From the NCBI GenBank assembly GCA_012026835.1, contig VEPN01000033.1, forward strand, positions 1-35,386: DNA of 35,386 nt. The letters are read 5' to 3'. The number at the start of each line of letters is the position of its first letter. The stretch's first letter is position 1. A program made the position numbers and the translations under genes. This document shows, in pieces, positions 11,322 through 32,937 of this stretch. The DNA is from Candidatus Methanoperedens sp. (GTDB lineage: Archaea > Halobacteriota > Methanosarcinia > Methanosarcinales > Methanoperedenaceae). The notes under the pieces were generated by a model. That model did no database searches. It worked only from the letters and a program-made list of their open reading frames with translations, and was not told the DNA's origin.

Positions 11322-11407
11322 GCCGAGGTGGCAGAGCGGACTAACGCGGCAGGCTCGAGACCTGTTTTACCTTCTGGTAAGCTAGGGTTCAAATCCCTAC
11401 CTCGGCG
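11322..11407 (+). tRNA. tRNA-Ser (anticodon CGA)
   Basis: A perfect 7-bp acceptor stem (GCCGAGG with CCTCGGC) and discriminator G. The anticodon loop CTCGAGA gives anticodon CGA, reading UCG serine codons. The T arm is TAGGG-TTCAAAT-CCCTA. A long variable arm (TACCTTCTGGTA stem-loop) marks it as a class II tRNA, as expected for serine. CCA is not encoded. It lies just upstream of a tyrosine recombinase, and tRNA genes are common integration targets, but I find no second copy of its 3' end in the window. Confidence 0.95.
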
Positions 11408-14209: not shown

Positions 14210-14388
14210 ATCAGCATGGGATGTAAAGTCTAAGTTCCTGTTTTTTTATAATTTTAAACCAAAACCGCCTTGAAGAAGGAAAGTATAATTTTTACTTGAA
14301 ATAATGTGGGCAGAATTAGTTCACCATTTCATACATGTATGTGAAAAGATTGTAGTAAGACGAGTACGGACTATAATAGGCGGAGAGT

Positions 14389-15739: not shown

Positions 15740-15838
15740 TTACTTATACATCAACCAAAAAATAGCCAGGCCCAGAAATGCAAAAAATATGAACATGAAA
15801 AAAAACACAAGCATCATTTCTTTGTTTTTATCTTGCAT
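15740..15838 (-). CDS. 32-residue single-span membrane microprotein
   Basis: A minus-strand ATG frame has a polar start (MQDKNKEMM), a very hydrophobic span (LVFFFMFIFFAFLGLAIFWL) and a short basic end (MYK). It lies between the ATP-cone nuclease gene and the end of the ferredoxin gene. Size and shape resemble small subunits of membrane oxidoreductases, but I recognise no family. No strong ribosome binding site is seen. Confidence 0.5.
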   Translation of the reverse strand: MQDKNKEMMLVFFFMFIFFAFLGLAIFWLMYK

Positions 15839-15949
15839 AGCTAATCATCTAATGAAAAAAGGGTCTTGTTTTTTAATGCTGTTTTTGGTTTAAATTTTAA
15901 AAATTTCAAACAATCGCGCTTCTTGATTCAGCATAAAAATATGCCAGAC

Positions 15950-21191: not shown

Positions 21192-21797
21192 ATGAATATG
21201 GTAGAACTGGACAATCTCGATGTTAAGATATTGACCCATTTGCAGAGCGACAGCAGGAAGTCGTTCCAGGAGATAGCCAGGAACTGCCTGACAAGCGTGC
21301 CAACAATCAAGAGCCGTGTGGACAGGCTGACCGAACTCGGTGTTATCAGGAAATTCACATTAGATATTGATTACAGCAAGCTCGGTGTATCCGAAGCGAT
21401 ACTCCTTGTAAATGCAAAGCCCATCGCAGTGAACAGGATAGCACAGGAACTCATGGGACTGGAAGAGGTAAAGGAACTGTACATTACATCTGATTCTGAT
21501 GCTGCCATTGTATCCAGGATAGCAGGTGATCTGCAGCATATAATTTCAATACAGGATCGGATCAACCTCACTGATGTGAACAACATCCGCGTTATCTCCG
21601 TAAAAAGCCTGTTTAGAAAAGACGCAACCATACCGCTGGCTTCCTCCAGCATAACCCTGACCTGTGCTTATTGCGAGAAAAAGGTGACAGGGAACGCGGT
21701 CAGGAAGAAATTCGACGATAAAGACTATTTCTTTTGCTGCGATACATGTGAGGGGGAGTTTGAAAAGAAATACGCGAAATTGATTGCTAAAGTTTGA
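21192..21797 (+). CDS. Lrp/AsnC-type regulator with C-terminal TRASH metal-sensing domain
   Basis: 201 residues. The N-terminal helix-turn-helix is LDVKILTHLQSDSRKSFQEI followed by SVPTIKSRVDRLTELGVIRK, and an Asn/Lrp-type alpha-beta domain follows. The last 45 residues form a TRASH domain: CAYCEKKV and, after a spacer, YFFCCDTCEGEF, with cysteines that bind a metal. This layout is that of archaeal CopR/CopT-type copper regulators. It sits between ccmC and a TnpB element, with copA 2.3 kb away. Metal identity (copper likely) is inferred from family and neighbours. Confidence 0.88.
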   Translation: MNMVELDNLDVKILTHLQSDSRKSFQEIARNCLTSVPTIKSRVDRLTELGVIRKFTLDIDYSKLGVSEAILLVNAKPIAVNRIAQELMGLEEVKELYITSDSDAAIVSRIAGDLQHIISIQDRINLTDVNNIRVISVKSLFRKDATIPLASSSITLTCAYCEKKVTGNAVRKKFDDKDYFFCCDTCEGEFEKKYAKLIAKV

Positions 21798-21803
21798 GAT
21801 ACA

Positions 21804-21840
21804 ATAATTTTGACACTCTCCATGCTAAAGCCGGGAGATT
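21804..21840 (-). ncRNA. 3' end of a TnpB-associated guide (omega) RNA and element right end
   Basis: On the minus strand the end of tnpB folds as TCTCC-loop-GGAGA (21835-21839 with 21818-21822), with the tnpB stop codon TAG inside the loop, and is followed by GTGTCAAAATTATTG. In IS605/IS1341 elements this is the scaffold end of the omega RNA, and the bases just after the element act as guide. The guide would be about 16 bases starting near 21812 and running towards 21797. Exact ends are not visible. Confidence 0.5.
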
Positions 21841-23039
21841 CTTGGTTCGCTGATAAAAACTTGTTCTGGATTGTTGACATCCAGAATAGAGGTTCTTATC
21901 TCCGCAAGCGTGTTGAGTTTTCCCATACCCATATCGAGAAAACACGGTTCGGGTGTGCCCCACCCTACCTTTTCTATACCTCTTCGCCTGATGTTCATTG
22001 AAGAATTATAGTCTCTGGGCATGACCGAGCCGCAGTACGGACATGAATGAGTCCGATCTTTCAGGTCTTTCGGTACTGTCCTGCCACAGATACAGCAATC
22101 CTGCGTTGTCCCTTTTGCTATGACACTGACTGCATACTTACCAGCATTCTCGGCTTTGTATTGTACGTAGCTGTTGAATTTACCCCATGAAGCGTCAAGG
22201 ATAGCCTTGGACAAACCGGAATTACCGCTGTGAACCATCCCGGCTATGCTCAAACCCTCAGAGGCTATTAAGTCATAGTTATCAACATAATACCTGCTTA
22301 TCTTGTGCAGGAAATCACTCCTCCGATTCTCCACTTTTTCATGAACCTTCGCCACTACCCGCCTCTGCTTCTTCCTGTTGTGGCTCCCCTTCACTTTTCT
22401 GGACAGTTTCCTCTGCTGTCTCTTCAATCTCTTTTCTGCCTTCTTAACGTTCTTCGGATGCTCGATTACAAGACCGTCACTGTCTGTTGAAAAATTGGAT
22501 ACATTCAGGTCGATTCCCACTGCTCTGACCTGTTTCGGCAGGAGATATGTTCTCCTGAATGCAAACCAGTCGTTGATCGCTGTAGTCTCTGAAACCACAG
22601 ATGCAAACCAATCATTGGTTTTATTGTGCTTGATGATAATCTGCTTGATTTCTCCTTTTATCGGTCTGCTCAGAACTATGGGTATCGCTCCTATTTTGCT
22701 GAGTTTCAAGATGTCTTCATCAATTTTGAATCCTGTCTGCTCAAATATCATGCTGTGCCTTGATTTGTGCCTTAACCTTCCAACCCTTTTACCTTTTTTC
22801 TTCAGTTCTGAAAGAGCTTTGATGTTATCTCTTATTTGATGAACTACATTCTGAAGCACTATGCTGTGGACTTCTTTGATGTCAGGGTATACTTCTTTCA
22901 ATTGAGGTAGTACAGAATCGTTCCAGATATTATGTTCCAGACACCAGTTATAGACAAAGCTGCAAATGCGAAGATTGGAAAAGAGTTTATCCTCAACTTC
23001 CTTGTTTGGATATAGCTTGAATCTGGTTACTTTTATCAT
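21825..23039 (-). mobile_element. tnpB: TnpB RNA-guided nuclease of an IS200/IS605-IS1341 type element
   Basis: 404 residues, the ancestor type of Cas12. The RuvC-like catalytic residues appear intact: Asp in VGIDLNVSNF, Glu in LIASEGLSIAGM and Asp in MPRDYNSSMN. A zinc finger lies between them (DCCICGRTV, then CPYCGSV). The basic region KRLKRQQRKLSRKVKG is typical. No tnpA transposase is present, so it depends on one elsewhere or no longer moves. It is inserted convergent to the Lrp-TRASH gene with 27 bases between the stops. Confidence 0.93.
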
Positions 23040-23183: not shown

Positions 23184-23307
23184 AACCCGATTCTGTAAAA
23201 ACCAGTGAAATTATTTCGCATTTTCAAATAATTAAGTTGAGCGCATTCTTACTTTAATTTTATAAACCGCAACTTACATGAAAAGTTAGAATCTATTTTC
23301 AATTATC

Positions 23308-23442
23308 ATGCAGGAGGTTAAAATATCAAAACTGTCAATGATACTGCTTGGAGATTTTCCAGCCACAGAAATTTTAAATCGTGTATTAAATGCTGAATGT
23401 AATATTGTTTTCAAAGATGTTTTCTCGATCCGGATGTTCTGA
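23308..23442 (+). CDS. 44-residue protein translationally coupled to the TusA-like gene
   Basis: The frame starts at ATG 23308 and stops at TGA 23440-23442, overlapping the next ATG as TGATG. The sequence contains KLSMILLGDFPATEILNRVL and no known domain. AGGAGG occurs just after the ATG (23312-23317), so the true start could be shortly downstream; no usual start codon is at the right distance. A TATA-like TTTTATAAAC near 23256 would allow a short or leaderless transcript. The tight coupling is the best evidence that it is real. Confidence 0.5.
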   Translation: MQEVKISKLSMILLGDFPATEILNRVLNAECNIVFKDVFSIRMF

Positions 23443-23687
23443 TGACAGAGATAACCCCTGATGCCGTACTGGATGTGAGAGGCGAAGCATGCCCTTATTC
23501 CTTCATAAGAACAAAATGGCTTATGGAACAGATTGCCAATGGCGAGGTGATAAAAGTAGTTGCAACTGATCCTGATGCGCTCGAGAATATCGATGCATGG
23601 ACTAAAAGATCCGGCGACAGGATCCTGAGGATTGAAAATGAAGGTGATACTTGCATTATCTATATAAAGAAGAAAGGGATGAAATAA
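23442..23687 (+). CDS. TusA/SirA-family sulfurtransferase-like protein
   Basis: 81 residues. The start VLDVRGEACPYSFIRTKWLME matches the TusA fold with the active cysteine (Cys17), but the usual CPxP reads CPYS. The rest, GEVIKVVATDPDALENIDAWTKRSGDRIL, is typical of the family. Such proteins relay persulfide sulfur. It is coupled to the 44-residue ORF and followed 27 bases later by the beta-propeller gene. Confidence 0.88.
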   Translation: MTEITPDAVLDVRGEACPYSFIRTKWLMEQIANGEVIKVVATDPDALENIDAWTKRSGDRILRIENEGDTCIIYIKKKGMK

Positions 23688-31930: not shown

Positions 31931-31959
31931 GATATATGTACTTTACGTCAAGTGTAAAG
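31931..31959 (-). promoter_or_regulatory. TATA box and palindromic operator of the ten-gene run
   Basis: On the plus strand CTTTACGTCAAGTGTAAAG (31941-31959) is an inverted repeat CTTTAC-N7-GTAAAG. Immediately next to it, on the minus strand, ACATATATC (31939-31931) is a TATA box for the YHS gene. The palindrome thus covers the BRE position. The site matches the one before the Lrp-TRASH regulator at 15 of 18 positions. Confidence 0.72.
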
Positions 31960-32120
31960 CACTGTTTTATATGGTCTATCGCCAAATTCATAATATTTTC
32001 ATAATCTTCTTTTCTTAATAGGACTGTGGTTAAAATCCTGAAAGAAATCAATACCGATTCCTTTCTTTTTATAAATTTAAGATCTTCTTTTCAAACCTGC
32101 ATACCATGTGTTTATGAAAT

Positions 32121-32237
32121 AGGTAGGGTGACCGGAGGCGGGGAAAAAAGTAGAAGTGTTTATTTGATCTTTTCCGGTCACTAATTCCTAATTACGCAGT
32201 CCTTTTTTATGTCGGTTGCGGTTTATGAAATGCAAAT
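32121..32237 (+). ncRNA. hairpin element copy 1, candidate small RNA
   Basis: A stem GTGACCGG (32128-32135) with CCGGTCAC (32174-32181) is followed by CTAATTA and then TTTTTT at 32203-32208, terminator-like on the plus strand. A TATA-like TTTTTATAAATTT lies at 32066-32078. The same order of motifs (stem, GGAAAA, AGTAGAAGT, TTTCCGG, CACT, CTAATTA, T-run, GGTTG, ATGCAAAT) is found in copy 2 about 190 bp further on. No protein frame fits both. Confidence 0.5.
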
Positions 32238-32314
32238 CAAAATATCGTTTAATTAAAAATCACAAAGTGTCGGGATTAATTTGTGCCGCCAATATACATT
32301 ATTACCTATCAAAT

Positions 32315-32421
32315 CGGATAGGAGTGACCGGGATATGCTGGAAAATAGAAGTAGTTTCCGGCCACTGAAATACTAATTATAGCTGCGTTTTTATGTGGGT
32401 TGTGCTTAATAAAATGCAAAT
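32315..32421 (+). ncRNA. hairpin element copy 2, candidate small RNA
   Basis: Stem AGTGACCGG (32323-32331) with CCGGCCACT (32358-32366), then CTAATTA and TTTTT at 32388-32392. The loop is shorter than in copy 1, yet pairing is kept. AATATACAT at 32291-32299 is a candidate TATA box at the right distance. The shared 3' part reaches ATGCAAAT. Between these elements and 31960 no gene is seen. Confidence 0.5.
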
Positions 32422-32454: not shown

Positions 32455-32937
32455 TTACGGCGGCATCGGCGTATCAGTCCCGACCCCCCTGCCTGAATAT
32501 CCGTCATCAATGGTTTTCCTGACATCTTTCAGTGAACTCCCTTTCATCAACATGTCCCTTGCTTCCAGTGTTATATCATTGCACAGCTTGCATTCAGAAG
32601 CATGCGGCTCAAAACTCCCGTCGGGTTTGATGTAGCAATCCTTCAGGCTTTTATGCGAAAGGAGTTTGTCTGAGTGCTCCATGCCAGCACAGCCGCAGTA
32701 GCACGCAAGATACTTGAGCTTGTCTTGGTTCTGTGCTGCATATATGTATGCTTCAGCCACACGAGCTGTCTTTTGTGCGAACTCAGGAAGTTCAGGTTTC
32801 GCGGGTTTTTTTGTATTATTGTCTGCTAATTTTTCACCACCTGCGTTGTTTAATAGTTGTGTGCCTCCCAATAGAGTGTAGTAAATTATTATGACAATTG
32901 CAACAGCGATTGCACCGGAAATGATTTTCGTTTTCAT
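32455..32937 (-). CDS. PCYCGC-motif membrane-anchored protein
   Basis: 160 residues: one N-terminal span (SGAIAVAIVIIIYYTLLG), then an outside helical domain with ACYCGCAGMEHSDKLLSHKS, KDCYIKPDG and HASECKLCNDITLEAR. This is the PCYCGC family, where the leading P is A here. Cysteines and histidines suggest metal (copper or haem) or thiol chemistry. The ATG at 32937 follows GGAGG by 5 bases; the upstream in-frame ATG at 32949 overlaps that site. It starts 13 bases after the CcdA-like gene. Confidence 0.87.
   Translation of the reverse strand: MKTKIISGAIAVAIVIIIYYTLLGGTQLLNNAGGEKLADNNTKKPAKPELPEFAQKTARVAEAYIYAAQNQDKLKYLACYCGCAGMEHSDKLLSHKSLKDCYIKPDGSFEPHASECKLCNDITLEARDMLMKGSSLKDVRKTIDDGYSGRGVGTDTPMPP

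Follow-up and report, generated by a model that had tools for sequence, protein, structure and literature searches.

To our knowledge, very few archaeal small RNA (sRNA) families combine support from compensatory changes with wide conservation. The closest described systems come from Methanosarcina mazei, in which loop 2 of sRNA154 bears an anti-RBS (ribosome-binding site) sequence and sRNA41 acts on the ribosome-binding sites of ACDS mRNAs to repress their translation (PMC5867862). A third M. mazei RNA, the 191-nt sRNA162, has three stem loops, lies beside MM2441/MM2442, masks the RBS with a single-stranded region and occurs in duplicated copies (sRNA162/sRNA171), with homologs only in three Methanosarcina species (PMC3510493).

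Here we analyse two hairpin units in a 35,386-nt stretch of Candidatus Methanoperedens DNA (contig VEPN01000033.1; hereafter the window). In keeping with this origin, all close relatives of CcdA come from Methanoperedens (ANME-2d). We consider it probable (about 0.62 for the explanation as a whole) that each unit is an independent minus-strand sRNA gene of a multi-copy family whose products would act in trans. Compared by published description, the units resemble sRNA154 and sRNA41 in being intergenic and in belonging to the same order, and they share with sRNA162/sRNA171 the order Methanosarcinales, a putative single-stranded masking of the RBS and the presence of duplicated copies. However, sRNA154 has two required loops, whereas the units have a single closing stem and a very large open loop; furthermore, unlike sRNA154 and sRNA41, they are present in many copies and are tied to cytochrome c genes. 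Assignment to sRNA162 itself was rejected because the units are only ~80–110 nt long, have one closing stem and lie beside other genes. In bacteria, C-rich-loop sRNAs, including multi-copy families, use a stem to present C/U-rich unpaired sequence complementary to Shine–Dalgarno motifs. The archaeal units would work alike, a likeness of mode of action across two domains of life.

Two hairpin units in an intergenic gap

The units span positions 32113–32237 (A) and 32309–32421 (B). The initial annotation had described the same order of motifs in both, and this holds: the copies share a 34-nt end block that is 85% identical and are spaced 184 bp apart. Their location, in the gap between the PCYCGC gene (stop at 32455) and the operator TTTACGTCAAGTGTAAA (Table 1), is also as it had been described. 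The accompanying claim that the stem pairs in both copies stands on the minus strand but not on the plus strand, where copy B has one A·C mismatch; full pairing in both is restricted to the minus strand because this A·C is a G·U there. The plus-strand hairpins alone both fold better than dinucleotide shuffles (z −3.5 and −3.1), and the somewhat longer minus-strand units A and B give z −2.3 and −2.6. For unit A, the predicted start lies at ~32202–32206, from which ~88 nt extend until conservation stops near 32117, and the loop contains a U-run and a C-rich stretch. Searching the same genome with blastn revealed further copies of the element on contigs C52 (E 7e-34) and C79 (E 2e-14), and also on C76. 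Together with the 31 full covariance-model copies found across the genus (see below), these argue that the hairpin units are not chance.

Elsewhere in the window, an 86-base tRNA (11322–11407), which may have a long variable arm or an intron, matches Rfam over the full model, and a minus-strand ORF near the cytochrome genes (21825–23039) was judged from its sequence to encode a TnpB-like (IS605/OrfB) transposase.

Table 1. Features of the window, with positions counted from its first nucleotide
Feature	Positions	Strand	Evidence or remark
Second exact operator copy, TTTACACTGTATGTAAA	21172–21188		Ends 3 nt before the AsnC-TRASH gene start
AsnC-type HTH and TRASH regulator gene	21192–21797	+	Adjoins ccmC; Pfam PF13404, PF24273
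Hairpin-less promoter block before tusA (23442–23687)	23259–23273	+	Pattern match
Palindromic operator TTTACGTCAAGTGTAAA before the YHS-domain gene	31942–31958		Type-1 sRNA promoters and ccmE regions have this type of site
Copy A, plus-strand reading	arms 32128–32135 (GTGACCGG) and 32174–32181 (CCGGTCAC); T-run 32203–32208	+	Conserved block ends at 32237
Copy B, plus-strand reading	arms 32324–32331 and 32358–32365 (CCGGCCAC); T-run 32388–32392	+	Block ends at 32421
Unit A, predicted small RNA	32117–32205	−	Alignments A8, A9; R1 92.6 bits (element), R2 62.7, R3 49.4
Unit A, stem 5′ arm, GTGACCGG on minus	32174–32181	−	Stem counts
Unit A, loop AAAAGAUCAAAUAAACACUUCUACUUUUUUCCCCGCCU	32136–32173	−	Long, C/U-rich, predicted unpaired in the minus-strand fold; every member has a corresponding loop
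Unit A, stem 3′ arm, CCGGTCAC on minus	32128–32135	−	Stem counts
Unit A, T-run (plus) or A-run (minus)	32203–32208		Read as unit A start region, not terminator
Unit A, promoter: TATA box TTCATAAACC, ATTTGCAT upstream	32215–32237	−	Exact pattern match 32215–32229 on minus; TATA test
Unit B, predicted small RNA	32313–32389	−	R1 71.8 bits, R2 54.4 bits
Unit B, stem 5′ arm, GTGGCCGG on minus	32358–32365	−	G·U with the other arm on minus, A·C on plus
Unit B, stem 3′ arm, CCGGTCAC on minus	32324–32331	−	Stem counts
Unit B, promoter: TTTATTAAGCACAAC, ATTTGCAT upstream	32399–32421	−	Pattern match and TATA test

Relatives across the Methanosarcinales

Relatives were gathered with iterated covariance models, the E-values of which are rough. 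Model R1 was oriented along the plus strand and included the end block, R2 is a minus-strand model and R3 a combined one; re-orienting the model and adding the diverged units of genome G027 (locus L148) exposed a wider family. Whereas blastn found related elements in 12 of 31 Methanoperedens genomes, R1 recovered 31 full hairpin copies across the genus and about 20 matches of the end block alone. Among 186 Methanosarcinales genomes scanned, R1 matched only Methanoperedens, a restriction that arises because R1 modelled the ccm-type promoter. R2 revealed a second, larger group, termed type 1, with stem GTGGGCAG/CTGCCCAC, which is present in nearly all Methanoperedens genomes and often in tandem. 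With R3, all 31 Methanoperedens genomes matched, with 1–20 copies each (12 in the source genome). Across the phylum, 21 of 393 genomes matched, all of them Methanosarcinales, the matches outside Methanoperedens being weaker; the covariance models found no related units in about 200 genomes of other orders.

The stem occurs as GTGACCGG, GTGGCCGG, GTGGGCAG, GTGGGCAA or GTGAGCGG, each with its complement. The ccm-type subtype has stem GTGACCGG, as in the window, and a ccmE-type promoter; most members outside Methanoperedenaceae share stem GTGAGCGGG and the loop CCCCCACTCCCC, the conservation of which is striking. Several genomic positions are conserved: adjacent to the genes for a CCG-domain (HdrB-like) protein and Dus (around ten genomes), as a tandem pair flanked by ubiD and an integrase gene (two genera, including genome G072 of the other genus), and between aminotransferase and THUMP methyltransferase genes. 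One longer member, in which the C-rich loop motif CCCCCCACTCCCC is duplicated, was observed in Methanosarcina-size genomes (L279–L282), between an MFS gene and a H+-pyrophosphatase gene. Three tandem units at L148 (850–1483) have their predicted start site covered by palindromes, TTAGTTCGTATATATACGAACTAA, that are perfect or nearly so and may serve type-1 sRNAs as a second operator.

The window, 13 type-1 loci and 16 order-level loci gave no Rfam 15 match at the gathering threshold except tRNA, and a search of the literature on regulation and small RNAs in Methanoperedens/ANME-2d found nothing relevant. Candidates set aside were the Rfam His leader, which was the sole match at relaxed thresholds and at chance level, and two weak R1 matches in the window (14255–14332 and 15836–15892), which have no hairpin and were judged to be chance or promoter-like. 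The hairpin units appear to belong to a new sRNA family that extends across the order, includes a subtype linked to cytochrome c and has no equivalent in Rfam 15.

A conserved stem closing a large open loop

A covariance-model search of related genomes, which the initial annotation had proposed as a check, found homologous loci with covariation in the stem. The 8-bp stem is maintained through compensatory changes: in minus-strand alignment A9 (73 units), 99.3% of stem cells are paired and 87 changed on both sides, and in A8 (minus strand, 34 units) 98.2% are paired with 9 double-change cells, with 0 of 500 shuffles as high in either case; both alignments used sequence only, but their members had been collected with structure-aware models that reward the stem, so these counts lean towards it. 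Such conserved structure is one of the marks of a trans-acting archaeal sRNA; another, the lack of a conserved reading frame, is also seen, as loop-length steps are not multiples of three and, judged by eye, ORFs in the units cannot be aligned. The suggestion that structure rather than coding is kept is therefore upheld by the compensatory stem changes, the freely varying loop length and the absence of a stable frame. Likewise, many copies, tandem arrays and compensatory stem changes support the description of the pair as tandem small-RNA-like genes with conserved structure. Each unit consists of a leader of ~20–25 nt, the closing stem, the long open loop and a 3′ tail rich in C, such as ACUCCUAUCC. 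An A-run, a U-run and a C-rich stretch recur in the loop across members, and the folds, a short stem closing the large open loop, have z values of −2.3 to −7.4.

A promoter and an operator shared with ccm genes

The end block behind the T-run is best read, from its distribution, as a promoter and not as part of the RNA gene. In many genomes it is found without a hairpin directly before ccmE–ccmF, with the start codon 40–110 nt downstream, and it also precedes tusA; its orientation is always the same and corresponds, at the units, to the minus strand of the window. The hairpin-less copy upstream of tusA in the window (Table 1) supports both the promoter reading and its direction; this arrangement, a ccmE-type block before tusA (23259–23687 in the window), recurs at three other loci (L151, L157 and L163). 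The block carries a TATA box, TTATAAACC, and the leader is common to hairpin units and hairpin-less ccmE promoters up to the point at which the hairpin begins. Some units form additional tandem copies ahead of the ccmE promoter (L155, L145), some are fused with this promoter, and others are solitary with no downstream gene. In type-1 promoters, CGTAAACTATAAATAC lies 25–30 nt before the predicted start. Both groups therefore have a promoter of their own (TATA in ccm-type, CGTAAACTATAAATAC in type-1), a further mark of a trans-acting intergenic archaeal sRNA.

The operator TTTAC-N7-GTAAA also links the units to these genes. An exact site within 60 nt upstream, at a fixed distance from the start, was found in 23 of 42 type-1 copies versus 5 of 785 background windows, and ccmE promoters are flanked by this site, which ccm operons carry as well. 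The number of operators in the window alone is not significant (3 matches with at most one mismatch versus 1.34 expected), and the case for the operator therefore rests on position and on other genomes. We propose the AsnC-TRASH protein, as a candidate only, as the regulator that the sRNAs and the ccm genes have in common; with the palindrome upstream of its own gene, it may be a metal or redox sensor that serves cytochrome c maturation and controls its own expression.

Strand and alternative explanations

The initial annotation had placed the RNA on the plus strand, with the T-run as its terminator and GGTTG-ATGCAAAT as part of the gene. These parts are better explained as the start region and TATA promoter of a minus-strand RNA: the run is also found in hairpin-less ccmE promoters and is absent upstream of type-1 stems, which argues that it is a start region, and the block supposed to follow the terminator acts, on the reading above, as a promoter. 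A minus-sense TATA lies at the expected place in 31 of 31 ccm-type copies (mean score 5.6 versus a background of 3.2). Plus-sense TATA scores are also raised (4.0 versus 2.9), but the excess comes from copies fused to ccmE operators, in which an operator-flanked plus TATA lies upstream; in copies without the operator module, the plus-strand TATA is not above background, and the operator–TATA–operator module occurs without a hairpin too. Stem wobbles point the same way: across the family, 19 favour minus (G·U) and 2 favour plus (A·C on minus), and in 11 of 31 ccm-type copies an A·C on plus is a G·U on minus, with the reverse in 1. The diverged units of L148 have another minus-sense TATA, TTTAAATAC, in the corresponding place and lack the plus T-run, and none of 44 type-1 units has a plus-strand T-run. 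What a plus-strand terminator would predict is seen in nearly all ccm-type copies, in which the T-run of 5–7 is longer than in hairpin-less ccmE promoters, and the plus-strand hairpins fold well; moreover, a minus-side oligo-T terminator is missing in the ccm-type (a run of at least five T within 50 nt in 3% of copies versus 12% when shuffled). Weighing TATA scores, wobbles, the L148 units and the type-1 units without a T-run, we conclude that the RNA is most likely encoded on the minus strand; the plus-strand reading is probably wrong, and a plus-strand small RNA seems quite unlikely to us.

A hairpin on the minus strand could instead be a cis-acting 5′ leader, an attenuator or ligand-binding element, of the downstream cytochrome-biogenesis mRNA. 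About nine copies are indeed fused as promoter, hairpin, operators and ccmE with no terminator between. By contrast, several ccm-type copies (L168, L178, L161 and L142) have no downstream gene in the sense direction, type-1 copies mostly face convergent genes, and at L155, L145, L141 and L149 a distinct ccmE promoter that lacks a hairpin comes after the last tandem unit. Between unit A and the YHS gene, the window contains a TATA-like stretch (32066–32078). On this balance we regard a cis leader as unlikely. That the arms act as DNA, either as a spaced inverted repeat to which a protein binds or as part of a miniature transposable element, would fit a multi-copy, intergenic inverted repeat, one copy of which (on C52) lies close to IS3-type transposase fragments (L002, 195–1289). 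Yet arm spacing ranges from 24 to more than 50 nt, the arms change in compensatory fashion through one-sided wobble intermediates, and the loop motifs and promoter are conserved. The neighbours, too, are common to species and genera, whereas a miniature transposable element would vary in position, and no target-site duplication was seen, although the search was not systematic. A DNA-level element is accordingly highly improbable.

Proposed role and significance

The sequences show the family, its structure, the direction of the promoter and the shared operator. On the reading of the units as independent minus-strand sRNA genes, each would be transcribed from its own TATA promoter, codirectionally with the cytochrome-biogenesis genes around it, with the AsnC-TRASH protein acting as the common regulator. 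The most likely role of the RNAs, to judge from their composition, would be trans-acting pairing with ribosome-binding sites, because a C-rich loop and tail are suited to pairing with purine-rich sites of this kind, a mechanism for which the M. mazei sRNAs described above offer a precedent. Predicted duplex energy against the start regions of the 39 ORFs in the window peaks at the Shine–Dalgarno position, with shuffled loops about equal, so that the test supports base composition and not target specificity. Such pairing would reduce protein synthesis from other mRNAs as cytochrome c maturation is turned on or off, and the U-run could, speculatively, be a binding site for an archaeal Sm/Lsm protein.

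More tentatively, this order-wide C/U-loop family might form the post-transcriptional arm of an AsnC-TRASH metal- or redox-sensing regulon, with around ten copies per genome in nitrate- or metal-dependent methanotrophs, that coordinates cytochrome c maturation with the translation of competing mRNAs. The family is testable: it has a candidate regulator, and related units occur in genera with some Methanosarcina-size genomes, in which genetics is possible. It is uncatalogued where checked and occurs in every Methanoperedens genome examined (31 of 31), and it shares its promoter and operator with the ccm genes, on which the extracellular electron transfer of these methane oxidisers depends.
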